A stretch of 64,000 nt of DNA. It comes from Siphonodentalium dalli (lineage: Eukaryota > Mollusca > Scaphopoda > Gadilida > Siphonodentaliidae). The notes beneath the pieces were generated by a model. It did no database searches. It was given only the letters and a program-made list of their open reading frames with translations, and was not told the origin of the DNA. This document shows, in pieces, positions 4,880 through 39,767 of this stretch (the stretch's first letter is position 1; the number at the start of each line of letters is the position of its first letter). The position numbers were made by a program, and so were the translations under genes. The DNA is taken from the NCBI GenBank assembly GCA_032622095.1, contig CP136065.1:94433343-94497342 (forward strand), written 5' to 3'.

Positions 4880-5014
4880 ATCAGAACTGCGGAATACCTT
4901 GTCCTTGTTTTATGGATGGGATTTATCATGATCTCGGGGATAAGTGGAGCGCTGAGAAAGAGCCATGCATCATCTATGAATGTTTGAGAGGTTACTACCA
5001 AGTAGTCGAAAGAG
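4880..5014 (+). CDS. Exon 2: VWC-like cysteine module
   Basis: Acceptor TACTTCCAG precedes 4880 and donor GTATGT follows 5014; the exon is phase 1-1 and 135 nt long. It encodes one module starting DQNCGIPCPCFMDG, with W in DKWSAEKEPC and a closing C-x4-C (CIIYEC). The spacing C-x3-C-x-C ... W ... C-x4-C resembles the first half of a von Willebrand C domain; the family name is inferred by pattern only. The last 29 nt plus the donor are the first unit of the 69-bp array that follows. A dispersed repeat ends just before the acceptor, so the upstream intron border is made of repeat DNA. If the donor is missed, the frame ends at a TAG at 5026-5028. Confidence 0.85.
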
Positions 5015-6620
5015 GTATGTATACGTAGTCAAGCCTGGTGAAGGATCAAAACCTCAGAGGTTACTACCAAGTAGTCGAAAGAGGTATGTATACGTAGTCA
5101 AGCCTGGTGAAGGATCAAAACCTCAGAGGTTACTACCAAGTAGTCGAAAGAGGTTTGTATACGTAGTCAAGCCTGGTGAAGGATCAAAACCTCAGAGGTT
5201 ACTACCAAGTAGTCGAAAGAGGTTTGTATACGTAGTCAAGCCTGGTGAAGGATCAAAACCTCAGAGGTTACTACCAAGTAGTCGAAAGAGGTATGTATAC
5301 GTAGTCAAGCCTGGTGAAGGATCAAAACCTCAGAGGTTACTACCAAGTAGTCGAAAGAGGTTTGTATACGTAGTCAAGCCTGGTGAAGGATCAAAACCTC
5401 AGAGGTTACTACCAAGTAGTCGAAAGAGGTTTGTATACGTAGTCAAGCCTGGTGAAGGATCAAAACCTCAGAGGTTACTACCAAGTAGTCGAAAGAGGTA
5501 TGTATACGTAGTCAAGCCTGGTGAAGGATCAAAACCTCAGAGGTTACTACCAAGTAGTCGAAAGAGGTTTGTATACGTAGTCAAGCCTGGTGAAGGATCA
5601 AAACCTCAGAGGTTACTACCAAGTAGTCGAAAGAGGTTTGTATACGTAGTCAAGCCTGGTGAAGGATCAAAACCTCAGAGGTTACTACCAAGTAGTCGAA
5701 AGAGGTATGTATACGTAGTCAAGCCTGGTGAAGGATCAAAACCTCAGAGGTTACTACCAAGTAGTCGAAAGAGATATGTATACGTAGTCAAGCCTGGTGA
5801 AGGATCAAAACCTCAGAGGTTTCTACCAAGTAGTCGAAAGAGGTTTGTATACGTAGTCAAGCCTGGTGAAGGATCAAAACCTCAGAGGTTACTACCATGT
5901 GGTCGAAAGAGGTTTGTATACGTAGTCAAGCCTGGTGAAGGATCAAAACCTCAGAGGTTACTACCATGTGGTCGAAAGGGGTATGTATACGTAGTCAAGC
6001 CTGGTGAAGGATCAAAACCTCAGAGGTTACTACCATGTGGTCGAAAGGGGTATGTATACGTAGTCAAGCCTGGTGAAGGATCAAAACCTCAGAGGTTTCT
6101 ACCAAGTAGTCGAAAGAGGTATGTATACGTAGTCAAGCCTGGTGAAGGATCAAAACCTCAGAGGTTTCTACCAAGTAGTCGAAAGAGGTTTGTATACGTA
6201 GTCAAGCCTGGTGAAGGATCAAAACCTCAGAGGTTACTACCAAGTAGTCGAAAGAGATATGTATACGTAGTCAAGCCTGGTGAAGGATCAAAACCTCAGA
6301 GGTTTCTACCAAGTAGTCGAAAGAGGTTTGTATACGTAGTCAAGCCTGGTGAAGGATCAAAACCTCGGAGGTTACTACCAAGTAGTCGAAAGAGGTTTGT
6401 ATGCGTAGTCAAGCCTGGTGAAGGATCAAAACCTCAGAGGTTACTACCATGTGGTCGAAAGAGGTATGTAAATGTAGTTAAGGCAGGTGATAGATCGAAA
6501 CCAGAGGTTTCTACCATGTGGTCGAAAGAGATATGTAAATGTAGTTAAGGCAAGTGATCGAAACCTGAGGTTTCTACCATGTGGTCGAAAGAGATATGTA
6601 GTCAAGCCAGGTGAAGAAAA
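4986..6620 (+). repeat. 69-bp minisatellite amplifying the exon 2 donor
   Basis: There are about 22 full units of 69 bp plus two decayed ones. Each holds the last bases of exon 2 (GGTTACTACCAAGTAGTCGA), the donor position and about 40 nt of intron. Units alternate between GTATGT and GTTTGT at the donor; two units (near 5770 and 6250) read GATATGT and lose the GT. A subset near 5890-6060 shares CATGTGG in place of CAAGTAG. Because 69 is a multiple of three, a repetitive 522-codon ORF (4980-6548) runs through the array. It is in a different frame from the exon and I read it as a by-product of the repeat, not a gene. Confidence 0.97.
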
Positions 6621-7052
6621 CCTCATGTAAGTTTTTGAGGACCTTCTTAAAGCAATGGTTTTTTATAGACTGGATATGTGGAGGGTGCTTATATATTTAA
6701 GCTGGCAAACCGTATAATAAATACATACGTACAGAGATTCATGGGGGCTATATACACAATTTTTGGGGATGATTGAAATCAGTAGCATCTGTCTGTGTGT
6801 CCAGCCTTGAGATATTTTAATCTGGAACATGTATGTATTCTCTCGAGTTCATTCCAATGATGACAATAACTATTTAAATATCAGAATAATTACTAGTAGC
6901 ATACATGTATACAGCCATCTTCATAAAAAAAATTATGATGCTGTTATGTATTACACAATGTAAATATCGGTCGCGATGTTCATTAAATTTACACACATAT
7001 TTTCGGGAATGATTAAACACTGAAATTGTCAATTCATTTTTGCAGAATTATT
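6621..7052. other. Intron 2, no gene seen
   Basis: AT-rich intron sequence between the 69-bp array and a C-rich dispersed repeat at about 7053. No ORF, RNA gene or clear repeat is recognised. Confidence 0.5.
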
Positions 7053-7150
7053 ATACTCCCCCCCCCAAGTTATGGGGGTATATAGGAATCAGCTTGTCCA
7101 TCTGTCTGTCGGGGCGTCCATCCGTCCATCGAAGGAACATTGTCCCAGCT
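7053..7150 (+). repeat. C-rich dispersed repeat, short copy
   Basis: It begins CTCCCCCCCCCAAGTTATGG, then GGAATCAGCTTGTCCATCTG and runs of GTCC-like words. It is related to the longer copies at 7663 and 46297. Confidence 0.8.
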
Positions 7151-7360
7151 TGTATTCCTACATTTGCAGTAAAATTACAAATTACATAAAGTTGTAAGTG
7201 GTCGAACAACATACTTGGCACAATTTCGCTTCAATTTTATAGGCCCATAAATGCAACCAAAAAGATGTTGCTTTCATATTTATTCACACCGTGACAGTGT
7301 TAATTTATTCACCATGATTTACTTTCCACAACAAAATTGTAATTTATGTAATCTCCACAG

Positions 7361-7474
7361 GTATCAACTTTAAGGGAGAGTGTAAGAAAGAAAATGACAC
7401 ATGGAGCGATAACTGCCTCACGTATCGAGGATTTGTAGAAGGGACATATCCTTACTACAAGCTCATCGAAGTAG
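7361..7474 (+). CDS. Exon 3: degenerate cysteine module
   Basis: Acceptor ATCTCCACAG precedes 7361 and donor GTAAGG follows 7474; the exon is 114 nt, phase 1-1. The translation begins GINFKGECKKENDTWSDNC and ends YYKLIEV plus the shared Gly codon. It keeps the central W and two cysteines, but the position expected for the last Cys of C-x4-C is Gly (CLTYRG), and the first Cys is also missing. It therefore looks like a diverged member of the module series rather than a canonical one. Matching phase and good splice sites support it as a real exon. Confidence 0.75.
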
Positions 7475-7662
7475 GTAAGGTTGCTAATAAAGGCCCACTT
7501 AATTCTCAAATTCCCAGATCACATTATATACCACATATTCCATAGTATATACCATTTGAAAGAGGAGACTCCAAAACATTGTGTTATCCACTTATCTGAT
7601 CGAATAAACTGGGAACATGTTGTTATTTTTGAGGTACCAAAGTGTGTTCTGTTCTTAATTAT

Positions 7663-8397
7663 ACCCCCCGCAACGAAGTTAGGGGGGGGGGGGGTATACT
7701 GGAGTCAGCTCGTCCGTCCGTCCGTCCGTCCGTCGTCCGTCCGTGGACACAAATTTGTCCGGAGTTTTTCTCAGTCGTTTTTTGATCAATTTCCGTGAAA
7801 CTTGGCACAGGCATCAACCACCATGGGAACCTGTGCACCTGCGATTATGACGTTTGTCGGACTTTTTTTGGTGGAGTTATTTCCCCTTATCGACTTAGAA
7901 ATTTTTTGCAACATGTATAATTTTGTCCGAGCTTTTATTCCTACATTTTTAGGTCAATTTTTTTTTTAACTTGGCACAGACATTTAGTACCATGGGAACC
8001 TGTGCACCTGCGATTATGACGTCTGTCCGACTTTTTTTGGTGGAGTTATCCCCCTTTTTCGACTTAGAATTTTTGTTGCAACATGCCTATAATTTTGTCC
8101 GAGCTTTTATTTCTACATTTTTAGGTCAATGTTTTTTAATCTTGGCACTGATATTTAGTACCATGAGAACCTATGCACCTGCGATTATGATGTCTGTCCG
8201 CCTTTTTTTGTGGTGTTATTCCCCTTTTTCGACTTAGAACATTTTTGCAAAATGCATAATTTTGTCCGAGCTTTTATTCCTACATTTTTCGGTCGATAGA
8301 TTACGGTTAGGTTTGTGCACCTGCTATGGGAACTGTTATTTTATTATTTTAACTAAATGTTTACTGACATGTGAAACATCTTAGTTTTTTTAAAACA

Positions 8398-8431
<34 letters not shown>

Positions 8432-8465
8432 ATCCTTAGTCCCATTGGGACAGTCACACCTCTAG
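7663..8465 (+). repeat. Long C-rich dispersed repeat with internal tandem units
   Basis: The start ATACCCCCCGCAACGAAGTT is followed by a G run, GTATACTGGAGTCAGCTCG and (GTCC)n at 7706-7745. Three tandem units of about 175 bp follow (7800-8290); each contains ACCATGGGAACCTGTGCACC-like sequence, TTTTGTCCGAGCTTTTATT and CCTACATTTTT. A poly-G run closes it. Short ORFs inside are repeat-derived. Confidence 0.85.
8399..8430 (+). repeat. Poly-G tract
   Basis: About 32 consecutive G residues after AACAC. The length is prone to sequencing and assembly error. Confidence 0.95.
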
Positions 8466-8553
8466 TTTTAAACTGGACTGTATTGCCAGTCTATTATTCT
8501 CAATGGATGGGGAATAACTCTATCTCTAAATTTGAATTTTGATGCATTCTGGG

Positions 8554-9232: not shown

Positions 9233-9325
9233 ATTCTGGGTTAATAACGGGGGTGAATCTGAGTATTTCTATCACTTGGTGTACACTCCTAGGCGACAGC
9301 TGTTCTGTATTCTAGTGGATATATA

Positions 9326-9529: not shown

Positions 9530-9532
9530 TAT

Positions 9533-11079: not shown

Positions 11080-11149
11080 AACTTTTCAAGGTAGGTACCT
11101 GCCGCTGAGCTCAAATTGTTTTAGAATTTAAGTCAATAGTCGTTTCTTG

Positions 11150-11824
11150 ATGGCTTATTACGTTCCACACAGGGAGATCCGTGTAGCCGTGGTTGGGCAC
11201 TCATTCATTCGTCGCTTGGGTGAACAACTTGGCTACGCGGATCGCCATGGGTCGACTTTCGAGGGTCACGATTTCTCGGGGGACCTCAGAATTCAAAATT
11301 ACATGGGCATCCCGGTGAATATCAGATTTTTCCACAAAGGGGGTGCTCATGTCCCAGATCTGTTGTCTTTACATACAGAGTTACGACAGTTCCTACCACA
11401 TGCCATTATCGTGCAATGTGGATCCAACGATCTCTGTAGGAGCACCCCCACTTCAGTAGTGTCTGATATTCTTAGCATTTGCACCGTGTTCCGGAGCATA
11501 GCATCAGTAAAGAAGGTTTTAGTGTGCCATGCTATGCCCCGTTTGGCAGTGCGGGGCCATAAATCTGTGGAAACCTACAATGGCCACGTTTCCGACTTCA
11601 ATGACCAGCTTAGTTGGGCCTTATCGCAAGCTACAGCAGCTTGGGAAACGTGGCCACATAGGCGTTTTATTGACGAGCCCCTGCACTTTAAATCAGACGG
11701 TGTACATTTATCTGGCCAGTCTCTGGTTTTGTATATGGCCAGTATCCGGGATGCCATTTCTTATGGAATTGCGGCTTTGTCTTGGTTAGCCCCCCCTTTG
11801 GTGGCCCCCCTCAGAAATGCGTGA
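11150..11824 (+). CDS. SGNH/GDSL-like hydrolase ORF of the Ngaro element
   Basis: 224 codons from ATG 11150. SGNH blocks are clear: block I VAVVGHSFIRR with the nucleophile Ser18; a Gly block at KGGAHV (about 73-75); block III VQCGSNDL with Asn93; block V DGVHLSG with Asp183 and His186. The fold is typical of esterases or acetylhydrolases; the substrate is unknown. SGNH ORFs are known from Ngaro and some other retrotransposons, where their role is unsettled. Here it lies first, ahead of gag, separated by 1.7 kb of noncoding sequence. The C-terminal tail (SWLAPPLVAPLRNA) is Pro/Ala rich. Confidence 0.9.
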   Translation: MAYYVPHREIRVAVVGHSFIRRLGEQLGYADRHGSTFEGHDFSGDLRIQNYMGIPVNIRFFHKGGAHVPDLLSLHTELRQFLPHAIIVQCGSNDLCRSTPTSVVSDILSICTVFRSIASVKKVLVCHAMPRLAVRGHKSVETYNGHVSDFNDQLSWALSQATAAWETWPHRRFIDEPLHFKSDGVHLSGQSLVLYMASIRDAISYGIAALSWLAPPLVAPLRNA

Positions 11825-13496
11825 TCTTTGTAAGTATTTCTGCTCGTGTGATGACACGCAGGCTATTTTGCTTGACCAATTTAAATTTTTATGAGCTTGG
11901 CGGTGGGTGCCATTTGCCCATCAACTTCAGCTCCACTGCTTTGCATGTCATTGTAAGTTGCTTGTTTTTCTGCTACTCTACTCAGAGGTGCCTATTAAGC
12001 GTGTCAAACAATTGTTAATTCTGGGAGTTTCCCAGCGATCATTAATTACATTTGGGTTCACTATATTTAATTTAACCAATATTCACCCACCATTATAGAC
12101 CATCACGTTTTATAGGCACCTTAGAGTATGTCACAGCCATCACCGGATATATCATTTAGCTCTCATTTGTTTATTTTCAGTTCACATATAACCACTGTTC
12201 TTTTGTGGGTCTGTCAGTTGATCATAACAACTAATTTAAAAACAAAAAATTCTCAATAGTTTGTGGCACATTTCAACTTTTACGTGTCAGTTTGAAGTCG
12301 TTTAGATTTTAGACAGTGTTTACATTGTTATTGTCCAGATGAGTGAGCTAATGATTTTTCTCATTACCGGTGCAGAGTTTGGTTTTTGCTGAACTCTGGA
12401 GCTTTAGCAGTTTTTAAGGTGCTCTTAGCCTTAAATTAGCACAATGATTTTTCTCGTTCATTTCCGGTGCAGAGTTTCTGTTTCCGGGACTCTGGAGCTT
12501 GATGGCATTTTTAAAGTCCTTAGCATTGAATTAGCACACCTACTATGGGTTAGAATTATTTTTCAGGCTCATGAGTTTCACTCACTTGTGGTTTCTGCTT
12601 CGGTGAGATTTTTCACATCAAAGATACATTTATATATTATAAAATAAAAAAATAAAAAAAAATAAATAAAAAAAAAATAATAATAATAATAATAATAATA
12701 AATTATTAACCAGCTCATTGTCCTACATGATGGCATCATGAGTGGCTAATTGTTAGCATTTTCTTTATTATATATTTTTCCCCAAAGCTCACCTTAATAG
12801 AAAGACAAGTCACCATAAATGTCGTTTGTTTTCGCTACCCACGCATGTTAACATGTGTCTAGCTCGCAAGTATTGTACATGACTTTATGCTTGTTTCTGC
12901 CCCTTTTCAACAGGTCAGATTGTAGCATTAGTTAATACACCGGTGTGCCAGGTTTGCCAACCTTCAGTTGTATTTCCCTCATTTGATCCTAATAACAAAC
13001 ACAAAACAAAAAAGGAAATATGTTCATACCGGTCAATTCCGGCATATAATAATTGGTTACAATAATTATTAATTTTGGTCAATAATAATTTATTGTCGTT
13101 TCAGGCTATACAATGCTGTTGTTTGGCAAACCCCCGTTTGATTTATCAAAATTCTGACTGGTTTGACATGTCAGCTGCACCCGCATTTTTACTTGTACAT
13201 GTATGGTGACTAAGCTTGAGCATACTGACTATTCTTTCTTACTCGAAACTAATTGCGTTGTCTCATCAACATTATGTCTATGTGTTAGCATAAGGTTGTT
13301 ATTTCAATTAAATTGGTAACAGTCAAGGACTTGCACAGGTACATACAGTATTTCAACTACACCATTTTAAGTCGCCACACAATGCAGATGTTCTGCTTTG
13401 GTATGCTCAAGCTTGGTTTCTTAATCTAAATTGATAACCTCATGCTTTTGACGGTCCTTAATTTTACAGTGACTACCTGTGACATCAATCCTCATC
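11825..13496 (+). other. Ngaro noncoding spacer between SGNH and gag ORFs
   Basis: 1.7 kb without a credible ORF. It contains a repeated segment: ATGATTTTTCTC, CCGGTGCAGAGTTT and TCTGGAGCTT occur at about 12350 and 12442. An AT simple repeat follows at 12640-12705 (AATAAAA-rich and (AAT)n). It may hold an intron or internal promoter for gag, but no signal is decisive. Confidence 0.6.
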
Positions 13497-15113
13497 ATGG
13501 TGAGACCCAGCAAAACTGCTTCAGCTCCTAAACGCAGAGGGCGCCCACCAGCAGCATCTCGTGCGCAACCACAGCCCTCTCGTCCAGTTTACTGCCAGCC
13601 TCATCCTGGTTCGGCTTCGTCTTGCTCCGTTACTGCCGGTTCTTCTGCAGCCAGTACCAGTTCTGCCAGCTGCATTACGTCTCCGTCCAGTGGCTCTGCT
13701 TCGGCTCCTAATCGCAGAGGCCGCCCACCAGCAGCATCATATCAAGTTCATCATCAGCCTACACATCCGGTTACCTTACAGCCTCATTCTGGGTCGTCTT
13801 GGACTCCCTCTGTTCCTGTTGGTTTTTCTCCAACCGGTATCGGTTCTGCCACCTGTGTTACATCTCCATCCAGTGGCTCTCTCCCAGTGTCTTACGCGGA
13901 GCTGTCTTGGACTTCAACCATACCTATGGGTTATACTCATACCAGTTCGAGCTCTGCCACGTTTAGTACATGTACATCATCCTGTGGCTCTGTTCCGCTC
14001 ACTCATACTGTTCCAGCATTACCAGTGACGATGATGTCAACTTCGCTCGCGGGTGGCATTGGACAGCCTATCAGTCAGCCTTTTATTCCATTGCCGGTCT
14101 CCGGTCTGACTTTTCCTGCCTGTTCGATTCAGCCTTCATCTTACCAACAACATTCATCACCCCCGGGACTTCAGATGCCGTTCCCTCCGGGAACAGTGCC
14201 CAACCAACATGACTTTTCGATGCCGGGCAATACCTTCATGCCTCATCCGATGGATGGTCTGCATACACTCCCAGCTTCACCTCGAACCAGCCCGCTGTTC
14301 AACTCTGACATTCCTACCGGCATCCAAGCTTCTGCGTCCGGTACGCCACTCTTAGACTTTGTGTCTTTAGCATCACCACTAGATGCTCATGTTCCAAACA
14401 AATTACGTGCTCAGATTTGGGCTGATGAATTCGTCCCTATGATCTCTCTATTGCCCGACTACGAACACAATCCAACCGCATTTTCATTGGACATGGGATA
14501 TCCGGGCGTTCAGGCTTTTCTGACGCCTCCAAAACCTCCGAAAACAATTTCAGACATAAATCAGTGGCTTGATGCTTTTATCGTTTTCACAATTATTTAC
14601 ATTTCACGCCACCCTGAACAAATTACTAAACTACTCAGCTACATGATGCGTATTCGAAAGATGGCTCGTACAGGTTATAACTGGGCTTCATATGATCGCC
14701 AGTTTCGGCTGATGAGGCAGTTCAACCCAAGTCTCTCATGGGACCATATCCAATGGGAGTTGTATATGCAAACCGCTCCAATGCAAACCGCTCCACGGTT
14801 TCCAACTTTTTCAGCCAACAATCCAGAACGAACGAAGCCGCGTTTTCAAAATTCCACCAATCGTGCGCGTCAACCCATTCCGAACGGGTTTTGTTGGGAC
14901 TTCCATCGGGGAAAAAATTGCTCCGGATGCAACTTTTCCCATTCCTGCTTTTTCTGCAAACAGCAGCATAGCTTCATTCGATGCCCGCGTCGAAATAACA
15001 ACCGAAATAACAACCGTGCAGGCAATTTCAACACACAACAAAACAATCAAGTCAATCGCGCCTCGCGTCAATCAAAAACTTCCAACACCAATACGGGTCC
15101 GAATGTTAAATGA
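13497..15113 (+). CDS. Gag-like protein of the Ngaro element
   Basis: 538 codons from ATG 13497. The N-terminal 300 residues are rich in Ser, Pro, Thr and Ala, with two AT-hook-like motifs (PKRRGRPP near residues 11-18, PNRRGRPP near 71-78). A more ordered region follows (about 310-430), including IWADEFVPMISLLPDYEHN. The C-terminus has a cysteine-histidine cluster at 466-496: CWDFHRGKNC, CNFSHSC and FFCKQQHSFIRC, a zinc-binding type common in DIRS-order gag proteins. The last residues are Asn/Arg rich, suiting nucleic-acid binding. The stop at 15111-15113 overlaps the RT start. Confidence 0.88.
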   Translation: MVRPSKTASAPKRRGRPPAASRAQPQPSRPVYCQPHPGSASSCSVTAGSSAASTSSASCITSPSSGSASAPNRRGRPPAASYQVHHQPTHPVTLQPHSGSSWTPSVPVGFSPTGIGSATCVTSPSSGSLPVSYAELSWTSTIPMGYTHTSSSSATFSTCTSSCGSVPLTHTVPALPVTMMSTSLAGGIGQPISQPFIPLPVSGLTFPACSIQPSSYQQHSSPPGLQMPFPPGTVPNQHDFSMPGNTFMPHPMDGLHTLPASPRTSPLFNSDIPTGIQASASGTPLLDFVSLASPLDAHVPNKLRAQIWADEFVPMISLLPDYEHNPTAFSLDMGYPGVQAFLTPPKPPKTISDINQWLDAFIVFTIIYISRHPEQITKLLSYMMRIRKMARTGYNWASYDRQFRLMRQFNPSLSWDHIQWELYMQTAPMQTAPRFPTFSANNPERTKPRFQNSTNRARQPIPNGFCWDFHRGKNCSGCNFSHSCFFCKQQHSFIRCPRRNNNRNNNRAGNFNTQQNNQVNRASRQSKTSNTNTGPNVK

Positions 15114-16659
15114 AATGTTATCAGGTTACAGTCAAAGGAAACGTGATTTCTTAATTGACGGATTCAAAAATGGTTTTCGATTGGGTGTCAGGGGTGAAAT
15201 ATCGTCTCGCGAACCAAAAAACTTGAAATCGGCTTTAGAATTTCCTGAAGCAGTTCGTCGCAAATTAACACATGAACTGTTGTTGGGTAGAATTGCAGGG
15301 CCCTTTAACACTCCTCCTTTTAACGACCTTATAATCTCTCCCATCGGGGTTGTTCCCAAAAAACAACCTGGGGAATTTCGCCTAATCCATCATCTGTCCT
15401 TTCCCGAGGGCGACTCCGTAAATGATCATATACTCCCAGAGTACAAGTCCGTTTCTTACTCTTCGGTCCAAAATGCTATCGACATCATTCAGAAGCTTCC
15501 AAAAGGCTGCTTCTGTTCAAAAATTGATGTACTTTCTGCATTCAGGGTTCTCGCATCGCATCCGGACGATTATAGCCTCCTAGGTTTCAAATTTGAAGGG
15601 AAATATTATTTTGATAAATGTATGCCGATGGGGGCTTCTTCAAGCTGTCATAATTTTGAGGCTTTCAGCTCCTCATTGGAGTGGATAGCTCAAAACAAAT
15701 TAGCTATACGTCATTCCGTACACTACTTGGACGATTTTATTCTCTTGGCTTCAACGGAATCCATTTGTGAGGCGTATTTATCATCCTTCTTAACCATGTG
15801 TCATAATTTAGGTGTTCCCATTGCACATGACAAAACTGTGTCACCTACTACATGTATCACATTTTTAGGTATACAGCTGGACACAATTAACATGACAGCC
15901 TCTCTACCGCGTGACAAAGTACAGCTATGCATCTCAAAAATCGAAGTCTTAATAGGCAAAAACAAAGTGCCGTTACGTGAACTTTTGTCAATTATTGGTC
16001 TATTGAATTTCACTTGTTCTGTCATTCAGCCCGGGAGAGTTTTTCTCCGTCGATTAATCAACCGAACGATTGGAATTAAGAAATTACATCATCGAATTAG
16101 AATCACAAACGATGTCAGGGAGGACTTGCATATCTGGCTTCTTTTTCTTAGACATTTCAACGGTACGTCTTTTTTCCTAAACCGGCAATGGGCAACGTCC
16201 CGCACATTATCATTCTATACAGACGCAGCTGCTTCTGTGGGTTTTAGCGCCATTTTTCATAATGAGTACTTTGCGGCTAAATGGTCTGACCGTGAAAAAA
16301 CTTTGAATATATCTGTCCTTGAACTATATCCAATAGTGCTAGGGTTACATATATGGGCATATACTTTGAAAAATAGCTGCCTATTATTCTACTGCGATAA
16401 TATTGCGGTGGTTTCTATCATAAACAAGCAAACAACTAAAGACCGTCACTTGTTGCTACTTTTAAGACAGTTGGTCTTGATATGTCTGACACATAATATA
16501 ATGTTTAAGGCTAGGCACATCAGTGGGGTTTCTAATGTTAAAGCGGACCTTCTGAGCAGAGGCAAATTTAAGCTGTTTCAGCATATGTTTCCTTCTTTTC
16601 AGGAGGTATCTTTCAGTCTGCCAACCAAGCTCCATCTAGAGAGCTTACTGAGACTCTAA
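15103..16659 (+). CDS. Reverse transcriptase / RNase H of the Ngaro element
   Basis: The frame is open from 14863 (no ATG there); the first in-frame ATG is 15103, overlapping the gag stop by 11 nt, giving 518 codons. RT motifs: KIDVLSAFRVL, the PMGASSSCHNFEAF block and HYLDDFILLAS with the catalytic pair at 210-211. RNase H follows: FYTDAAASVGFS (Asp374), VLELYPIVLG (Glu407), FYCDNIAVVS (Asp432) and VKADLLSR (Asp482). It would copy the element RNA into DNA. All acidic catalytic residues are present and there is no internal stop. Expression could be by termination-reinitiation at ATGTTAAATGA or by frameshift inside the 250-nt overlap with gag. Confidence 0.95.
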   Translation: MLNEMLSGYSQRKRDFLIDGFKNGFRLGVRGEISSREPKNLKSALEFPEAVRRKLTHELLLGRIAGPFNTPPFNDLIISPIGVVPKKQPGEFRLIHHLSFPEGDSVNDHILPEYKSVSYSSVQNAIDIIQKLPKGCFCSKIDVLSAFRVLASHPDDYSLLGFKFEGKYYFDKCMPMGASSSCHNFEAFSSSLEWIAQNKLAIRHSVHYLDDFILLASTESICEAYLSSFLTMCHNLGVPIAHDKTVSPTTCITFLGIQLDTINMTASLPRDKVQLCISKIEVLIGKNKVPLRELLSIIGLLNFTCSVIQPGRVFLRRLINRTIGIKKLHHRIRITNDVREDLHIWLLFLRHFNGTSFFLNRQWATSRTLSFYTDAAASVGFSAIFHNEYFAAKWSDREKTLNISVLELYPIVLGLHIWAYTLKNSCLLFYCDNIAVVSIINKQTTKDRHLLLLLRQLVLICLTHNIMFKARHISGVSNVKADLLSRGKFKLFQHMFPSFQEVSFSLPTKLHLESLLRL

Positions 16660-17552
16660 ATTTTTTACTTTCTCGATCATTGGCTCCTTCTACACAGAAA
16701 CAGTACTCAACGGCATTGAATCATCTGGTATCATTTGGTCTGGCTACATGCCTTCCACTACACATTCCATTATCTAGTGATACAATCTGTTTATTCATAT
16801 CGTATTTGTATCGTAAGGGTTTAGCAGCTAGCACAATTACCAGTGCTATTTCAGCGGTTGCCTTCGTGCACAAAATAAGAAATGCACCAGATCCAACTCA
16901 AGCTTTTATAGTAAAGAAGATCTTAATGGCCATTCGCAGACTACTTCCTGTTTGCGATGTTCGTTTACCTATTACATTAAATATACTTAATAGGCTTCTC
17001 TCTGTAGCACCCCTTTTGGGCATTTCAGTTTTTATGCAGAGACTACTCGCGGCAGTTTTTACTACTGCCTTTTTTGCTATGGCTCGAATCGGTGAGATTT
17101 GTCCAAATAATCATGCTAACAAGGACAAGATCTTACAATTGAGCGATTGCATTACTTCTGCCTCAGACTTTACCTTAATTTTCAGAATATTCAAACACAA
17201 CAGTGATGGCCGTCCTCACTTCATTCGGTTATTTCCTCAAACACCATTAAAACCATGCCCAGTTGAAAATTTAAAGGCTTTTTTGTGCATTAGAGGCAAT
17301 CACCCGGGTCCTCTCTTTTCTTATCCGGATGGGCAACCTTTGTTGCGACATAAATTTGATAATCTCCTCAAACAGTGTTTATCCATATGCAATCTAAACA
17401 GCAAACGCTATTTGTCACATAGCTTTCGCATAGGCGCCGCATCATGGGCGGCAGACTCAGGATATTCAGATTCTCAGATAAGACGAATGGGTCGTTGGAA
17501 ATCGAACGCTTTCCTCAGATACATTCGCCCTTCGCCACTATCCCAAAGCTGA
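16572..17552 (+). CDS. Tyrosine recombinase of the Ngaro element
   Basis: The frame opens at 16572 and overlaps the RT frame by 88 nt; there is no ATG near its start, so a -1 shift from the RT frame is likely. The N-terminal domain (APSTQKQYSTALNHLVSFG) is the SAM-like core-binding fold. The catalytic set is complete: Arg at codon 17085 (MARIGEIC), His 17418 and Arg 17427 (LSHSFRIGAASW), Trp 17496 (MGRWKSN) and Tyr 17520 (RYIRPS). It would integrate a circular DNA intermediate without making target duplications. Confidence 0.94.
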   Translation, partial: AVSAYVSFFSGGIFQSANQAPSRELTETLNFLLSRSLAPSTQKQYSTALNHLVSFGLATCLPLHIPLSSDTICLFISYLYRKGLAASTITSAISAVAFVHKIRNAPDPTQAFIVKKILMAIRRLLPVCDVRLPITLNILNRLLSVAPLLGISVFMQRLLAAVFTTAFFAMARIGEICPNNHANKDKILQLSDCITSASDFTLIFRIFKHNSDGRPHFIRLFPQTPLKPCPVENLKAFLCIRGNHPGPLFSYPDGQPLLRHKFDNLLKQCLSICNLNSKRYLSHSFRIGAASWAADSGYSDSQIRRMGRWKSNAFLRYIRPSPLSQS

Positions 17553-26016: not shown

Positions 26017-26517
26017 GGTCAATGTTCATACATTAGTTGCCCATCTTGGCATTTATGATGCCGATTTAGCTGGGTTATAGAGGACATGGTTACACAGATA
26101 TTACGCTGTTTTTGGCCTATTTGTCAGCATTACTAACATCAAGCTAAAAATAAATGCCAAATTTAAATATTGGTTTCATCAAATTATTTTTACATGAGTT
26201 ATGGCCCCTTTTCAACTTAATTCAGTTGCTTTAATAACAATTTACAAGTAAACTAACAGGCATATTTAGCCACATCCCAGTTATGCTGTTGTTATATGTT
26301 CAATAACAGTATTATGTAATCAGTTGTCGGACCATCCCACCGTCTGTCTGACTTCACGTCAACATTTCGGGTTTCCAGATGATAACTTTAATCGATCGGT
26401 TTGACAAATTTGCCTGCAATGAGTTATTTTATTTGTTGTTGTTCTTGATATCCTAGATACTGTTTAGAATGCTGAATGAAACTTTAACCAATATTTTATT
26501 CTAATGCTTATTTATAT
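26017..26517. other. Intron 3 segment before the acceptor array
   Basis: No gene. From 26350 the sequence GACTTCACGTCAACATTTCG is the start of a 952-bp block repeated at 27302. Confidence 0.6.
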
Positions 26518-29372
26518 GGCAGGCTGTGCTGATGATAATGGGGAAACATTAACCCAGATTTTATTCTGTTTATTTATATGGCAGGCTGTGCTGATGATAA
26601 TGAGGAAACATTAACCCAGAATTTATTCTACTGTTTATTTATATGGCAGCTGTGCTGATGATAATGGGGAAACATTAACCCAGATTTTATTCTATTGTTT
26701 ATTTATATGGCAGGCTTTGCTGATGATAATGGGGAAACATTAACCCAGATTTTATTCTATTGTTTATTTATATGGCAGCTGTGCTGATGATAATGAGGAA
26801 ACATTAACCCTGATTTTATTCTAATGTTTATATATATGGCAGGCTGTGCTGATGATAATGAGGAAACATTAACCCAGATTTTATTCTGTTTATTTATATG
26901 GCAGGCTGTGCTGATGATAATGGGGAAACATTAACCCAGATTTTATTATAATGTTTATATATATGGCAGGCTGTGCTGATGATAATGAGGAAACATTAAC
27001 CCAGAATTTATTCTGTTTATTTATATGGCAGGCTGTGCTGATGATAATGGGGAAACTTTAACCCAGAATTTATTCTACTGTTTATTTATATGGCAGCTGT
27101 GCTGATGATAATGAGGAAACATTAACCCAGATTTTATTCTAATGTTTATATATATGGCAGGCTGTGCTGATGATAATGAGGAAACATTAACCCAGAATTT
27201 ATTCTGTTTATTTATATGGCAGTCTGTGCTGATGATAATGAGGAAACATTAACCCAGATTTTATTCTGTTTATTTATATGGCAGGCTGTGCTGATGATAA
27301 TGACTTCACGTCAACATTTCGGGTTTCCAGATGATAACTTTAATCGATCGGTTTGACAAATTTGCCTGCAATGAGTTATTTTATTTGTTGTTGTTCTTGA
27401 TATCCTAGATACTGTTTAGAATGCTGAATGAAACTTTAACCAATATTTTATTCTAATGCTTATTTATATGGCAGGCTGTGCTGATGATAATGGGGAAACA
27501 TTAACCCAGATTTTATTCTGTTTATTTATATGGCAGGCTGTGCTGATGATAATGAGGAAACATTAACCCAGAATTTATTCTACTGTTTATTTATATGGCA
27601 GCTGTGCTGATGATAATGGGGAAACATTAACCCAGATTTTATTCTATTGTTTATTTATATGGCAGGCTTTGCTGATGATAATGGGGAAACATTAACCCAG
27701 ATTTTATTCTATTGTTTATTTATATGGCAGCTGTGCTGATGATAATGAGGAAACATTAACCCTGATTTTATTCTAATGTTTATATATATGGCAGGCTGTG
27801 CTGATGATAATGAGGAAACATTAACCCAGATTTTATTCTGTTTATTTATATGGCAGGCTGTGCTGATGATAATGGGGAAACATTAACCCAGATTTTATTA
27901 TAATGTTTATATATATGGCAGGCTGTGCTGATGATAATGAGGAAACATTAACCCAGAATTTATTCTGTTTATTTATATGGCAGGCTGTGCTGATGATAAT
28001 GGGGAAACTTTAACCCAGAATTTATTCTACTGTTTATTTATATGGCAGCTGTGCTGATGATAATGAGGAAACATTAACCCAGATTTTATTCTAATGTTTA
28101 TATATATGGCAGCTGTGCTGATGATAATGAGGAAACATTAACCCAGATTTTATTCTAATGTTTATTTATATGGCAGGCTGTGCTGATGATAATGAGGAAA
28201 CATTAACCCAGAATTTATTCGGTTTATTTATATGGCAGTCTGTGCTGATGATAATGAGGAAACATTAACCCAGATTTTATTCTGTTTATTTATATGGCAG
28301 GCTGTGCTGATGATAATGAGGAAACATTAACCCAGATTTTATTCTAATGTTTATTTATATGGCAGGCTGTGCTGATGATAATGGGGAAACATTAACCCAG
28401 ATTTTATTCTAATGTTTATTTATATGGCAGGCTGTGCTGATGATAATGGGGAAACATTAACCCAGATTTTATTCTAATGTTTATTTATATGGCATGCTGT
28501 GCTGATGATAATGAGGAAACATTAACCCAGATTTTATTCTGTTTATTTATATGGCAGGCTGTGCTGATGATAATGAGGAAACATTAACCCAGATTTTATT
28601 CTACTGTTTATTTATATGGCAGCTGTGCTGATGATAACGGGGGAAACATTAACCCAGATTTTATTCTAATGTTTATATATATGGCAGGCTGTGCTGATGA
28701 TAATGAGGAAACATTAACCCAGATTTTATTCTGTTTATTTATATGGCAGGCTGTGCTGATGATAATGAGGAAACATTAACCCAGATTTTATTCTGTTTAT
28801 TTATATGGCAACCTGTGCTGATGATAATGGGGAAACTTTAACCCAGATTTTATTCTGTTTATTTATATGGCAACCTGTGCTGATGATAATGGGGAAACTT
28901 TAACCCAGATTTTATTCTGTTTATTTATATGGCAACCTGTGCTGATGATAATGGGGAAACTTTAACCCAGATTTTATTCTGTTTATTTATATGGCAACCT
29001 GTGCTGATGATAATGAGGAAACATTAACCCAGATTTTATTCTGTTTATTTATATGGCAACCTGTGCTGATGATAATGGGGAAACTTTAACCCAGATTTTA
29101 TTCTGTTTATTTATATGGCAACCTGTGCTGATGATAATGGGGAAACTTTAACCCAGATTTTATTCTGTTTATTTATATGGCAACCTGTGCTGATGATAAT
29201 GAGGAAACATTAACCCAGATTTTATTCTGTTTATTTATATGGCAACCTGTGCTGATGATAATGGGGAAACTTTAACCCAGATTTTATTCTACTGTTTATT
29301 TATATGGCAGGCTGTGCTGATGATAATGGGGAAACATTAACCCAGAATTTATTCTGTTTATTTATATGGCAG
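26518..29372 (+). repeat. About 62-bp minisatellite amplifying the exon 4 acceptor
   Basis: About 43 units of 61-65 bp. Each contains the acceptor (TTTATTTATATGGCAG), the first 20-odd nt of exon 4 (GCTGTGCTGATGATAATGGG) and AAACATTAACCCAGATTTTA. Variants include GGCAGCTGTG, GGCAACCTGTG (clustered 28805-29260) and ATATATATGGCAG. A larger duplication with 952-bp offset (26350-27301 to 27302 onward) copies unique flank plus about 14 units. The last unit leads straight into exon 4. Confidence 0.97.
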
Positions 29373-29489
29373 GCTGTGCTGATGATAATGGGGAATGTCT
29401 AGATGTCGGAAGGAGGAGAGAACATCAATGTCATATACAGGAATGTCAGATAGTCGATGGCTGCTTCACGATGTCACAGATTGCTCATG
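29373..29489 (+). CDS. Exon 4: VWC-like cysteine module
   Basis: Acceptor TTTATATGGCAG precedes 29373 and donor GTATGT follows 29489; it is 117 nt, phase 1-1. It starts GCADDNGECLDVG and contains CHIQEC, giving C-x6-C ... C-x4-C, plus one extra Cys (DGCFTM) near the end. The usual central W is absent. The first 23 nt of the exon and the acceptor are the motif repeated about 43 times upstream. A foldback element begins 13 bp beyond the exon, and its target duplication copies the donor region. Confidence 0.83.
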
Positions 29490-29502
29490 GTATGTTTAGG
29501 AG

Positions 29503-29750
29503 CAAGCCTTGAAATAGGGTGTCTGTCATTTGCAGAATGAGGTCCCCAGAGGGTGAATTTAGTGATGCTACCCCGCATAGCGGGCTAGCATCACCAAACT
29601 CACCCTCTGGGGACCTCATTCTGCTTACACCTCAGCAGAATGAGGTTCCCAGAGGGTGAATTTGGTGATGCTAGCCCGCTATGCGGGGTAGCATCACTAA
29701 ATTCACCCTCTGGGGACCTCATTCTGCAAATGACAGACACCCTATTTCAA
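29503..29750. mobile_element. Foldback element with double hairpin, beside exon 4
   Basis: The ends CAAGCCTTGAAATAGGGTGT / ACACCCTATTTCAA are inverted. Inside, two palindromes of about 95 bp (29533-29630 and 29635-29730) share AGAATGAGGTCCCCAGAGGG and a loop with CCCCGCATAGCGGG. The flank GGTATGTTTAGGAG occurs on both sides (29489-29502, 29751-29764), a 14-bp direct repeat that includes the exon 4 donor. Sister copies: 38078-38228 and 63086-63333. Confidence 0.9.
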
Positions 29751-29928
29751 GGTATGTTTAGGAGATTAACCCTTTCTTTACTAACCACTCACTAATGAGT
29801 AGTTCCCTTAGGCCAAATAAAAAATATTATTTGAGTCTCAGACACTGCCGCGTTGAAATAAATGGCCCGCATTGGACTTTTTATTTTGATTTTTGATATT
29901 ATGACCAAAAAAGTGGGGGGAAAAAAAA

Positions 29929-31475
29929 ATTCAGAAAGAGAACAAGAGAAAACCTGTTGATACTGCTGCGCCAGATACCGTTAGACCAGAATGCGATGCT
30001 GTAATCCAGCAAGAGAAAAAGAGAAAGCTCCCTGAATCTGAACAGACAGAACCAAAACGATCGAAGCATGCCACGTCATTTAAAACATCATGGAACAAGG
30101 CTAGACCGTGGCTACTGTACGTGACAGATGTGGGCATGTTTTGTGAATTCTGTCGGAAGCATGACATGCAGCCATTTGACTGCGAGACATGGAACACACA
30201 GCCATGTAAACGCCTTCGCTTAGAGAGCATTGTGGATCACGAGAAGTCGAATGCGCACAAAATTGCATCCAAGCTTAGCGTCGATAAACACCAAACAGAC
30301 GTCAAGGAAACTATAGTTCCGTCGTTGTCAATGAACGACATGAGCAGAACTTTCGCATGCCTGTACTTCTTGTGCAAACAAAGAATTTCACATACAACAA
30401 ACTTTGTACATCTACTCGACCTAATGGACTATATGTCTCTGTTCAGGGGCTGCTAGATGAACCAGAACTAAAGGTGTTAGAACCCTCTTGAACACGATGG
30501 CTTTCTATTGGGTTATGTGTGGCACGAATAAAGAAAACATTGGCCAGCATTATTATCAGCTTGGAGAGAGAATCTGAAGAACGAGGTGATGCCAAAGCTG
30601 CAGGTCTGAGCATGTTTATGTCGGACTTTCAATTTATTGCCACTCTACTTTTATTCTGTGATGTTCTGCCCAAAATCAACTGACTGTCCAAAATATTCCA
30701 GGACAGTGAACTTGATTATGCTCTTGTATATAGCTCCCATTGTGCAATCAACAAGAAATCAAATCTCGAAGATGTCCGAAAGTGATTATGACGCTGACAA
30801 CTTGAAAGAAATTTTGGCATACATTCTTTGAAAGAAGCAGGCGTTAATGTAAGCTACAACAAACGAAATATTCGTGGAAAGGGTGACACTGAGAGTGAAA
30901 TGGTGGACAAATATCGTGCTGACGTGAAGATTCCCTTCATTAACAATATTATTTCAAACTTGGATAACAGATTTACCGATTCCGGTGTAATTACTTCATT
31001 CAGAATATTCAACCCTTCTCATATGGACAAAGGAGATAAAGTTTATGGAAAGAGTGAAATTCAGACCCTCATTAACCAATTTGGCGGCTATTCAGTTGAT
31101 GAGGCAAAGGAAGAATGGGATGATTTTCGGGAATATATGGCATTGAACATGGAGAAGATGAATACTCGAGATGTTGTGCGTGCTTTGACGGGGCATTCGA
31201 AAAACCCACTGAGAATGGTTTATCCAATAACATCACACTTGGCTGAAATATATCGAGTGGTACCACCACATACCGCAAACGTTGAGCGTGATTTCAGCCA
31301 GATGAAACTGATCAAATCATGTCTCAGAAACCGTATGGTGGAGGAAACGTTAGACGCAGTCATGCGTATAGTAATTGAAGGACCGCCCCTGGAAGATTTC
31401 CCCTTCCAAGATGCGGTTAAACTGTGGGCAGATGGAAAGAATAGGCGATTAAAAGTCCATTCCATGAAAGTGTGA
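29929..31475 (+). pseudogene. Decayed hAT-like / ZNF862-like transposase gene
   Basis: Frame 1 from 29929 to 30456: a Lys-rich start, FKTSWNKARPWLLY, a zinc finger MFCEFCRKHDMQPFDC and HEKSNAHK (C-x2-C ... H-x4-H). A frameshift near 30450 leads to another frame with LLDEPELKVLEPS, a stop, TRWLSIGLCVARIKKTLASI, SLERESEERGDA and FIATLLLFCDVLPKIN. The last part, 30828-31475, has VERDFSQMKLIKSCLRNRM and MRIVIEGPP, the hAT dimerisation signature. The stops and frame changes mean it is inactive. The nearest known type is the ZNF862/KIAA1586-like group (pattern judgement). Confidence 0.87.
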
Positions 31476-31995
31476 CGTAACTGAAGTTGTATAAACAAAC
31501 ATTGTAAATAGACGACACTGTGTATAGTAAAAAGAAGGAAATCACGTGGGAAATATGACATGACGCGATTAGTACTCAGGCGATGATTGGCACGTGTTCG
31601 TGTGACGCTGTTGTTAGTTCTCTCCAAGACAGCCTTTGATATTATGCCGCCGTTTCAGTTTACTGTACCGGATTAACCTGTTAAATAATTGGATTTATAT
31701 AAAGAATATGCAGGGGAATCTTATACCGGGTGAGTTACACTGACTTTCAAATTACGTTCGCCCAAATTTAAAATATGAAATGTCCCTATTTTATGATAAT
31801 TTGTCAGAGGCCTTGTGGTGTATTTTACACCCGAAATGCAAGGAAAACGCGTTTGCGGGCGCTAATAATCCAAATTTTCTTCCGATTGGCCGAACCATGG
31901 TCGCCCAATAGGACTGATGACCCTCCCGCCCGGGACTATTTTTGGGGATTGGCACATCCCTGTAAATGTAACAAGAAAAATATATACCAAGGAAT

Positions 31996-33133
31996 TAGTG
32001 ATGCGGACCGGGCCGGACCACCTTGGGTGGTCCGATCCACTGCCAAGGCAGTCCAGTCCGGTCCGGTCCAGGCCATTCCGGTCCGGTACACATGCCTGGA
32101 CCGGTCCAAAACGGTCCGGTCCACCTATAGTAGGCTATATGTTAATGAATTCTCTGTTTTCTCAAAGTTTTTACTCTATATAGTACAAACTATAAGGTTA
32201 CTGAGTTCAGTGCATTGCAATGAGTTCATATATGTTAAAACATACATTGTTTGCCGAGTGTATGCATCATTGTCTGTCTCTGGTGGGATATACTGGGAAC
32301 GATGCACGATAATAGTATTTCTAGTAATGCGAACATGCACTAATTCAATGTATTGGACAGATATATAGCTAGGGCCAGAATGTGTTATAACCAATCTAAC
32401 ATGGCACTCAACTGATCGTATGTATGATTCGTATCATATTTATTTTCATTAAATTGAAATTTAAACGAAATAACTATACTGATGAAAATTATACAAATGT
32501 GTACTAATATGACTACTACATTAATATTGGAGTCTTGGAGATTGTGATTGCTGATTGTATAGTCCTGACAATTACAGTTATACACCTAAGTACAACTATA
32601 CTATTGGATTAATGTGACTGTCTTGTGTATGTACTATGTAATGTGGTGTGCATGGTTCTTCGATAATTATAACTGTGAAAAACAATAGAATACTCGATTC
32701 GATATCCATCCAAATTGATTAGTTGATGCCATGTTACACTGTTTATGACAAATAGTTCCATACGCATTCAGTTGCATGTTTGTCGCATTGATAGGGTGCT
32801 ACATAGACTGTTGGCCAGTGTTACACTAACACATTTTAAGGAAAGTGACATGTACAAAGTACATCTATACATTGTTTTCGTGGCATCAAACGTTTAATAG
32901 ATATTAACCACTTGAATGTGTCAATACATCGTTGCTAATTGATATGACGGCAAATACGCAATAATATTCGCGATAGTTTATTATAACTGAAGTAAAATAG
33001 TGGACCGGACCGGAGAGTACCGGACCGGCAGCAAAAAGCAGTCCGGTCCAGTGACAACCGGTCCGGAACGGACCGCGGTCCACCCCTGGACCGCGGACCG
33101 GACCGGTCCAAAGCGGTCCGGTCCGCATCACTA
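31996..33133. mobile_element. hAT MITE with GC-rich iteron ends
   Basis: Termini TAGTGATGCGGACCGG / CCGGTCCGCATCACTA; exact 8-bp target duplication CAAGGAAT at 31988-31995 and 33134-33141. 1138 bp. Both ends carry clustered GGTCCGGTCC words in inverted arrangement (32000-32125 and 33000-33125); the centre is AT-rich without a transposase. Confidence 0.95.
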
Positions 33134-33235
33134 CAAGGAATATACTATGTAGTTCAGTATGTAAGTATCTTATTATGGAATATGTATTTTCTATTTGAAA
33201 ATGTTATTTTTATATCAGATTAAATGAGTGTATAT

Positions 33236-34477
33236 TAGTGCTGGGACGGTTGGGTTTTTTTCCTAACCGGTTAACCACGGGCATTAACCTAATCATAACT
33301 GATTAACTGAGACCATCATTACCCTAAGTACGAGATTGAATACACTGGTCACTATATCAGCAAAACAAGTGTTTATTACACGTCCCGGACACATTGATAT
33401 ACATGCGATCACAAACGATGTCTTGGTCGTACAATGCAGGCCCGTTATGGCGATCAAATAGTGGTAAATGTGTATAAATTAATTCAGTTTTGAGCCCAAA
33501 TAAACTCAAATATAATATATATTGGTAGTGCGCTAGTATATCGATGTTTACGGGAGTTCCGCGCCGCATAAACAACGCTTGCTTGCAAAACCTTCAGCGA
33601 CGAAATATAGTTTCTTCCTCGTGTATATCCCGGGCACGATTAGCCCAAACATGTGTACTACAAGGTACTGAAGGTAGGTATACTGTTGTTTAGTAATGTT
33701 TACTAGTGTCTGGGTATAGGTAGGTATGTATTAATCACAGTGGCTCCACGATGTTACTTCAATTATTTAATAAACAAATTCAAACAAAATTAAATCGTTG
33801 TGATTCATTACACAAGCCCCAGTCAGTGTTTAGGAAATAAAGTTATCAAACACATCACTATACTCCGAGTTCCCACTCCCAATAGGCCTGTGTGTATTTT
33901 CTGGTTGTGCGACTTCATATTGGATGTTGATCCAGAATAAACGAATCGCGTTCGGCAGGCCTTGCATTCCGCCCAGTTCTTCTTTTTTTTGCGTCATCTT
34001 CAATTAGGACTAAATGTCCCCAAACGTTCAATTTCCGTTTTTGTAGGTCTTCTATCATCGCTTTGAGACGAACTAATGGTAATGACAAAGGGAGGGGGCA
34101 GTTTCAAGAAAACAGACATACTATTGATGACGTAGTAAAAGTCTAGATTGCTTTGATGTATGCCGCGGTGCGCGTGCAGCCGGAATCAAGTGTAGTTGTT
34201 GGTTTCATGTCTAGAAAAGCCGCCGGTGATCAAACGGGCTTGTGTTGTGGGGTATATGAATACACAATCAACTTTCCAAATCACTTCTAAGCGGCTTCTT
34301 ATTACTTACTCTCATTACTTAAACTTCCGTAAATGATTTCGGCAACATTTACACGGAGTACTACGATGATAGTACGATCGTTATCAATAGTACGGTTATC
34401 CGGTTGTGGCCTCCTCCAACCGGTTGACACGCGTAACCGAACCGTAACCAGATATCTGGACAACCATCCCAGCACTA
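33236..34477. mobile_element. Second hAT MITE
   Basis: Ends TAGTGCTGGGACGGTTG / CAACCATCCCAGCACTA; target copies GTGTATAT (33228-33235) and ATGTATAT (34478-34485), 7 of 8 identical. 1242 bp with no transposase. The relative at 42200-42839 shows the uninterrupted site (AATGAGTTTATATGCAT). Confidence 0.93.
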
Positions 34478-34940
34478 ATGTATATGCAATACAAAGTTCT
34501 TTTTTTTTTACTATTACTAGACAAGGGAAGCTATCAGGAACCATGCTTACAATGTGCACAAAAAAGATATAAAATCCTTCCTCTCTCATTGATTCAGATA
34601 AAAAATTGTCTGAGACTCAAATATTTTTGTTTTGGCCTTAGATACTAGTTTTACATCGTCTGATCTCTAAAGCATAATTAATTCAATTCAGATATATACC
34701 TGATATTCCAATGGTTGACTGTAGTATCTCATAGTGTTTGTCGAAAGAGTATTTGTATTGTGTTTGTAATCATCGAATTGAAAATTATTTGTATTTTAAG
34801 CAAATACGTAGGCATGCAATGTAATTGGCTCATCTCTTGTTCATTGAGACATAATGTTTGTTTTTTTTAGCTGGGAGTGATTTACTTAGACACCAATATA
34901 TAATTCTGAATGTGATCTGCATGTTTCTTTTGCTTTTCAG

Positions 34941-35057
34941 ATTGTTTGACTAAGGAAGGTTGCAAAAAGAAGGACTCATTCTGGCATGATGGCTGTAGTG
35001 TATATCAGTGTGCAGATAATGGTGGTGATGAAGTCTATACTACTCTCGTTAGAGATG
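34941..35057 (+). CDS. Exon 5: VWC-like cysteine module
   Basis: Acceptor TGCTTTTCAG precedes 34941; the donor is GTTAGT at 35058. It is 117 nt, phase 1-1. The peptide begins DCLTKEGCKKKDSFWHDGC and continues SVYQCADNGGDE: C-x5-C ... W ... C-x4-C, the clearest example of the module. Its last 58 nt and donor are the first unit of a six-unit array. Reading past the donor meets TAG at once (GAT GGT TAG), so this donor has to be used for the frame to continue. Confidence 0.85.
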
Positions 35058-35635
35058 GTTAGTTTTATATTTAAATTGAGTCCTGCTACAGTAGTGCTCA
35101 CAAACGCTGTATTGTATATCAGTGCACAGATAATGGAGATGGTGAGGTCTATACTAATTTTGTCGTTAGAGATGGTTAGTTTCATATTTAAATTTATTCC
35201 TGCCTCAACAGCACTCACGAAGGCTGTATTTAAATCTGTATATATGCCGGTGGTGATGAAGTCTTTTCTACTCTCGTTAGAGAAGGTTAGTTTCATATTT
35301 AAATTGAGTCCTGCTACAGTAGTGCTCACAAACGCTGTATTGTATATCAGTGCACAGATAATGGAGATGATGAAGTCTATACTTATTTCGTCGTTAGAGA
35401 TGGTTAGTTTCATATTTAAATTTATTCCTGCCTCAGCAGCACTCACGAAGGCTGTATTTAAATCTGTATATATGACGGTGGTGATGAAGTCTATACTACT
35501 CTCGTTAGAGAAGGTTAGTTTCATATTTAAATTTAGCCCTGCCTCAGTGGCGCTCACGAAGGCTGTATTGTGTATCAGTGTACAGATGATGATGGTGATG
35601 AAGTCTATACTAATATAGTTTCATATTTGTTCCCT
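35000..35635 (+). repeat. About 114-bp array amplifying the exon 5 3' end and donor
   Basis: There are six units, the last partial, starting at about 35000, 35113, 35231, 35341, 35459 and 35570. Each contains a copy of the exon segment VYQCxDNGxxEVYT..., the donor GTTAGT and 50 nt of intron. Units 2+3 match units 4+5, giving a higher-order dimer. Units 2 and 4 keep a translatable exon piece with one extra codon; units 3 and 5 have a diverged start. None has an acceptor directly before it. Confidence 0.92.
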
Positions 35636-39690: not shown

Positions 39691-39767
39691 ATAGTCGGGG
39701 GACAAAAATTAAGAAACAATTAGTAAAACTTACAACCCGCTTATTTCAGACAACCCACTTATTTCAG

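Follow-up and report, generated by a model that had tools for sequence, protein, structure and literature searches.

The stretch of DNA analysed here (64,000 nucleotides of Siphonodentalium dalli, a scaphopod mollusc, from contig CP136065.1 of assembly GCA_032622095.1; hereafter the window, with positions counted from its first letter) contains nine readable exons of one gene, and three of their 18 borders lie inside tandem arrays. Each array unit combines an exon edge, its splice site and the adjoining intron edge, and the affected borders are two donors (exons 2 and 5) and one acceptor (exon 4). We consider it probable (about 0.78) that these arrays are minisatellites of the mirage type, which would have arisen from independent short duplications that were tolerated and subsequently enlarged by unequal exchange. 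A preliminary description had reported that unrelated units amplify three splice junctions of this gene, and that the arrays sit in the introns. Our analysis of the unit anatomy at the three borders confirms that this observation is real and that the anatomy had been read correctly.

Gene model and anatomy of the border arrays

We read the array regions and rebuilt the gene, and we kept the exon numbering of the preliminary description (E2-E10). The nine exons, each followed by the support for its placement, are:

4880-5014, plus strand: exon 2, cysteine-rich, phase 1-1; joined frame and similarity to the other small exons
7361-7474, plus strand: exon 3, without an array at either border; joined frame and blastn border test
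29373-29489, plus strand: exon 4; joined frame and small-exon similarity
34941-35057, plus strand: exon 5; joined frame and small-exon similarity
36280-36585, plus strand: exon 6, first part of the ApeC domain; joined frame and Pfam
39768-39986, plus strand: exon 7, second part of the ApeC domain; joined frame and Pfam
44800-44922, plus strand: exon 8; joined frame
60630-60767, plus strand: exon 9; joined frame
63351-63473, plus strand: exon 10; joined frame

All nine exons are flanked by AG and GT, have a length that is a multiple of 3 and are of phase 1-1, and the joined frame is open over 463 residues. Residues 166-340 of the joined exons matched the ApeC domain of Pfam (PF16977, E=4.9e-36) across the junction of exons 6 and 7, and the joined exons gave no other Pfam match at E up to 1. 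This match indicates that the gene is an ApeC (apextrin C-terminal) gene. The ApeC family is linked to immunity; the domain is present in several phyla (PMC9585378). The seven small cysteine exons are mutually similar, with a shuffle p<0.05 for 15 of the 21 pairs but not for the other 6 and a mean z of 2.6, and their consensus is GC....GC...G..W...C....C. Because the phase 1-1 frame is open, the ApeC match runs across exons 6 and 7 and the small exons resemble each other, the exon borders in question appear to be supported beyond their splice signals. Searches with the ApeC part gave no solved structure at E up to 1, and no relatives of the domain were confirmed in viral contigs.

Arrays were called with Tandem Repeats Finder (TRF) on the whole window, which resulted in 41 rows, and were then counted unit by unit. 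The three border arrays are among the four longest TRF arrays of the window, the longest being a 40-bp satellite (about 315 copies, 46901-59494) that fills most of intron 8. The border arrays are:

4987-6625, plus strand: array 1, exon 2 donor; 69-bp units of 28 bp exon and 41 bp intron
26478-29395, plus strand: array 2, exon 4 acceptor; units of about 39 bp intron and 23 bp exon
34991-35614, plus strand: array 3, exon 5 donor; 66 bp exon (first unit, from 34992) and 48 bp intron

TRF reported 23.5 copies of 69 bp for array 1 (4987-6600), 46 copies of 62 bp for array 2 (26478-29395) and 5.5 copies of 114 bp for array 3 (34991-35612), with an additional row of 228 bp for the last. Unit by unit, array 1 consists of 24 units, the first 21 being gap-free and 69 bp long and the last three degenerate. 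Array 2 consists of 44 units, mostly spaced by 62, 64 or 65 bp. In array 3 one truncated unit accompanies five full ones of 111, 114 or 117 bp, and two unit types alternate. The numbers given before (about 22, about 43 and 6) were thus close without being exact. No copies of the three units were detected elsewhere in the window (blastn, E up to 1e-3).

The full units of array 3 (34992-35561) have exon parts of 66, 69, 63, 69 and 63 bp, all divisible by 3, and an intron part of 48 bp in every one. In units 1, 2 and 4 the exon parts (66, 69 and 69 bp) have an open frame that retains both cysteines; a stop is present in units 3 and 5. Since the periods of arrays 1 and 3 (69 bp and 111-117 bp) are multiples of 3, long open frames run through both. 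One of 522 residues through array 1 and one of 222 residues through array 3 were rejected as coding; their frames differ from those of the exons.

Array 2 contains a block that recurs after 952 bp and that includes part of the 5' flank of the array. As a correction to the preliminary description, the run of units at exon 4 is therefore broken by a second copy of sequence from the 5' flank. The two copies of the block are 100% identical over about 800 bp, and the block thus represents either a very recent exchange or an assembly effect.

Origin of the arrays and comparison with known border repeats

Judged by eye, the edges of array 1 share 1 bp, those of array 2 share 3 bp (GAA) and those of array 3 share 0 or 1 bp. 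Sharing of only 0-3 bp fits slippage or microhomology joining rather than recombination between long repeats. The exon-side unit of array 1 is identical to four intronic units; the outer three units differ from it at 14, 21 and 20 positions, as compared with 0-3 for the other units. The exon-side unit of array 2 is identical to two intronic units, and here the outermost unit and its copy at the 952-bp spacing have 8 differences from the consensus, as compared with 1-6 for the other units. The identity of exon-side units with intronic copies, together with the drift of the outer units, indicates that in arrays 1 and 2 the exon edge takes part in the exchange.

We infer the following course of events. 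At each of the three borders a short segment containing exon edge, splice site and intron edge would have been tandemly duplicated, by repair or replication slippage that required little or no microhomology. The extra copies would fall into the intron and the exon would keep one intact junction, which may be why the duplication was tolerated. Unequal exchange would then expand and homogenise the copies, including the one at the exon edge, and the units distal to the exon would drift; homogenised copies and drifted outer units are indeed observed in arrays 1 and 2. Splicing presumably continues at the exon-side site, with no selected role for the copies.

The arrays are of a known, though little-studied, kind. 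Minisatellite-like duplications of intron-exon boundaries have been described for lancelet globin genes, in a report that also cites Adh3 and other loci (PMC3087553). These mirages are spliced normally according to reverse transcription polymerase chain reaction, differ in length between haplotypes and evolve in concert with the exclusion of boundary units, and they have been proposed as a route to new introns (PMC3087553). Variation in length, between haplotypes or somatic cells, counts among the features of mirages. A further report added PGBD5 to the lancelet mirages and cited troponin C (PMC3902484). In the lancelet cases (Adh3, BflGb6, BflGb9, troponin C and PGBD5), as in the gene studied here, the units span a donor or acceptor border and many of them contain splice signals. 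The S. dalli sequence also displays units of minisatellite size that span the boundary, at both 5' and 3' borders, and a presumably authentic border copy at the exon, with an open frame. Concerted evolution with an excluded boundary unit is matched in arrays 1 and 2, and array 3 has its alternating types. Unlike the lancelet mirages, the arrays described here number three in one gene, two of them with 24 and 44 units; the lancelet unit numbers, where the reports state them, are 2-7 (6 or 3 for BflGb6; 2 or 7, and 3 or 6, for PGBD5). In these sources the name mirage has so far been used for lancelet genes.

A second group of cases comes from human segmental duplications, for which 27 intron modifications were reported, with tandem repeats at exon-intron boundaries and novel introns (PMC2812944). 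These also concern minisatellite expansion at exon-intron boundaries, and the human repeats vary between paralogues. Their units average about 30 bp and 4 copies, and the novel introns have transcript support (PMC2812944). By comparison, the units in S. dalli are longer, the arrays are far larger and a new intron is not evident. Tandem duplication has furthermore been put forward as a mode of intron gain, with the AGGT model, ATP2A1 and a duplicated intron-exon structure in potato RdRp as examples (PMC4974935). In that model, too, the duplication copies splice signals, but few copies are made and a new spliced intron results, whereas in our gene an existing border is repeated many times and no such intron is evident. 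Finally, partial exon copies with canonical splice sites were mentioned, as data not shown, for introns of the lancelet immune gene VCBP3 (PMC2632668). As in our case, an immune-type gene there holds sequence from nearby exons, together with splice sites, in its introns; the available text of that report does not describe these copies as arrays. Together, the published lancelet and human border repeats show that this kind of repeat recurs. With three cases in one gene, dozens of units and exon edges identical to intronic copies, the S. dalli gene is a strong and large example of it.

Several points weigh against the proposed origin. The exon-side unit of array 3 differs from the other full units at 19-24 positions, and homogenisation in this array therefore appears to leave out the exon edge. 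The donor of array 3 is also less variable than its surroundings, with 1 of 9 variable positions as compared with 17 of 51 (60 bp compared in 5 units). In addition, we infer the use of the exon-side splice sites from their sequence, and the human boundary repeats were reported to alter splicing and to form new introns (PMC2812944). Errors of assembly may have altered the number of copies or created false ones, above all in the block of array 2. Lastly, the enrichment of arrays at borders (see below) would, if real, exceed what tolerance alone accounts for, and would ask for a local mutational bias.

Chance, junction bias and possible roles of the copies

Besides the three border arrays, one small duplication touches an exon border:

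39732-39767, plus strand: tandem duplication of the exon 7 acceptor, with two 18-bp copies that lie in the intron only and end in CAG (TRF)

Its upstream AG would add 6 codons in frame. At the 15 borders outside the arrays no spanning copy was found (blastn test for direct copies within 4 kb), and none of the rows that TRF added at a minimum score of 30 spans a border.

TRF arrays cover 32.6% of the window, and the three border arrays might thus be some of the many arrays of a repeat-rich gene region that happen to end in exons, picked up because many windows were read. We regard chance as a real possibility, though a rather unlikely one. Permutations were based on 33 of the 41 TRF rows, nested rows being left out, which were merged to 29 intervals; a merged interval took the largest period and copy number among its rows. 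In the main null model arrays were free to sit in introns or to stop within an exon, and were never allowed to cover a whole exon. Against the 3 border-spanning arrays observed, this model predicted 0.76 for all 29 merged arrays (P=0.038), 0.66 for the 19 with a period of at least 20 (P=0.026), 0.37 for the 10 that also have at least 2.4 copies (P=0.005), 0.26 for the 7 with at least 3 copies (P=0.0017) and 0.17 for the 4 with at least 5 copies (P=0.0003). A null without the exon rule gave P values of 0.031, 0.020 and 0.0008, and of 0.0001 with at least 4 copies, and one that placed the founder unit alone gave 0.008, 0.007 and 0.0002. When arrays touching a border were counted, and hence the exon 7 duplication was included, 4 of the 29 did so (P=0.005).

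The modest values obtained over all arrays, or all with a period of at least 20, are compatible with chance; the values of 0.0003-0.0017 for arrays of at least 3 or at least 5 copies argue against it, as does the recurrence of the arrangement in unrelated lancelet genes and in human genes. No excess was found at the level of positions, where a direct copy within 4 kb spans 3 of the 18 borders and 188 of 914 control positions, any local copy being counted and not arrays alone. The controls lie outside the three arrays and the 40-bp satellite and were taken every 50 bp, which makes adjacent ones interdependent; if the three arrays are retained, the count is 292 of 1024. The earlier statement that three such cases in one gene are unlikely by chance is therefore supported in part, for arrays (P 0.0003-0.038, depending on which are counted) but not for positions, and it concerns a window that was chosen after the fact and a finding picked from many. 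The clustering at borders is suggestive, and alone it does not show a junction-directed process.

The same array-level values, including those for border-touching arrays and for the founder unit, can be read in favour of splice junctions as mutational hot spots for tandem duplication, for instance through R-loops, polymerase pausing or co-transcriptional breaks. The duplication at the exon 7 acceptor and the recurrence at junctions in several lancelet genes point in this direction, and so does the GC skew, which at ±40 bp is 0.32 for the three array borders and 0.09 for the other 15. However, the exact P value of this difference depends on the size of the interval: among eight sizes, those from ±15 to ±100 bp gave 0.042-0.23 and that of ±150 bp gave 0.009. 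What speaks for transcription-linked slippage, which had been suggested as a recurring mechanism, is a weak surplus of G relative to C at the array borders that varies with the interval chosen; a transcription-linked start is conceivable. The absence of a position-level excess likewise speaks against junction hot spots, and the longest array, the 40-bp satellite, is internal to its intron and has the opposite skew. The array borders are not distinct in purine or AT richness. Slippage driven by hairpins was rejected, since the three units fold no better than shuffled sequences (z -0.58, 0.00 and 0.93), and single-strand folding thus gives junction hot spots no help. Altogether we find a hot-spot origin doubtful. 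Both chance and hot spots are compatible with the mirage-type origin and do not exclude it.

Three further explanations assign a function to the copies. According to the first, the arrays are stores of exon-edge variants, from which unequal exchange or conversion with the exon-side copy would change the codons at the end or the start of the exon and so diversify a putative immune recognition protein. The identity of exon-side copies with intronic copies in arrays 1 and 2 forms the basis for this idea. Array 1 encodes the open alternative peptides RGFYQVVER, RGYYHVVER and GGYYQVVER beside RGYYQVVER (22 of the 24 units translated), and array 3 offers two full open variants (units 2 and 4, with both cysteines) and a truncated one. 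We consider such a store improbable.

Selection for decoy sites had also been proposed, in which case the copies would be kept as decoy or buffering splice sites that tune the splicing of the gene. In agreement with this, the splice dinucleotide is retained in most units (GT in 20 of 24 for array 1, AG in 35 of 44 for array 2 and GT in 5 of 5 for array 3), and intronic minisatellites have been tied to alternative splicing in C. elegans (PMC4039745). The AG of array 2 is lost in 9 of the 44 units, namely 8 consecutive units near the exon and one other. Scored with a weight matrix of general metazoan frequencies, the true donor of exon 2 reaches 8.8. Among the other 23 donors of array 1, 6 score as the true donor, 11 carry the weaker GTTTGT and score 4.7, 2 have GGG before GTATGT and 4 lack GT.

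Variability was counted over the 21 gap-free units of array 1 and over 36 of the 44 units of array 2, leaving out 8 that lack one base at the acceptor. Within the array 1 unit, variability is highest in the donor hexamer (mean 0.095, versus 0.022 in the exon part and 0.001 in the remaining intron part), although the concentration of 3 of the 8 variable sites in the 9-bp donor site is not significant (P=0.06). For array 2, variation affects 25% of the 36 units at the acceptor G and 28% at the base that follows; these positions rank third and fourth in variability among 40, of which 30 are invariant. Array 3 shows the opposite: its donor hexamer is invariant in 5 units, with a mean variation of 0.17 in the exon part and 0.09 in the intron part, so that this donor is conserved above its surroundings, as decoy selection would have it. 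In arrays 1 and 2, then, variability at the splice sites exceeds that of most of the unit, and the proposal of decoy selection finds no support there.

The reading frame leads to the same view. The frame test assumed straight read-through and did not consider further splices inside an array. Decoy donors of array 1 reach a TAG four codons past the junction codon of exon 2, those of array 3 meet TAG directly after the exon 5 junction codon, and none of 34 upstream AGs of array 2 is in phase and open. Hence no decoy copy, read straight through, yields a productive message. Because recent homogenisation leaves few independent events, these counts amount to an absence of support for decoys and not to disproof. 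On balance, the copies look like tolerated by-products rather than maintained decoys, and we hold a decoy role to be quite improbable.

Least probable of all, in our opinion, is that units are being recruited as alternative exon ends, i.e. as nascent exons or introns in the sense of intron gain by tandem duplication, a model put forward for lancelet globins and human boundary-repeat genes: the exon parts of array 3 units 1, 2 and 4 are indeed open with both cysteines, but units 3 and 5 carry a stop, and the starts of units 2-6 have an AG in only 3 of 5 cases and none in 2, these AGs scoring -0.6 to 0.7 as compared with 3.8-11.4 for the nine real acceptors. From the sequence alone, the open nine-exon frame would need no new intron, and the acceptor-like sites in array 3 appear weak.

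Other repeats in the window and significance of the gene

A foldback element of about 250 bp (29490-29764) lies directly behind the exon 4 donor. It is flanked by the 13-bp direct repeat GTATGTTTAGGAG, which contains the intron side of this donor, and the exon 4 donor sequence is therefore also present twice. Further copies of the foldback element are located at 38082-38224 and at 63090-63333, the latter ending 17 bp upstream of exon 10. A solitary, diverged relative of the 40-bp satellite unit is found near exon 2 (4721-4754). The region 11132-17552 contains a weak match to a GDSL lipase, a reverse transcriptase (PF00078) and a weak match to a phage integrase, which look like parts of a tyrosine-recombinase retroelement; no relatives of it were confirmed in viral contigs. 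Intron 4 carries probable remains of a hAT-like transposase (29905-31475; a zf-C17orf113 match and a weak Dimer_Tnp_hAT match). A search against Rfam gave no match at the gathering score.

In border repeats one can see tandem duplication and splice sites come together, and such repeats have been put forward as a source of new introns. With its three border arrays, two of them with dozens of units, the present gene is a good test object for the question whether junctions attract duplications. The same gene bears on how the spliceosome chooses one site among dozens of near-identical copies, and on whether intronic arrays can rewrite coding edges.

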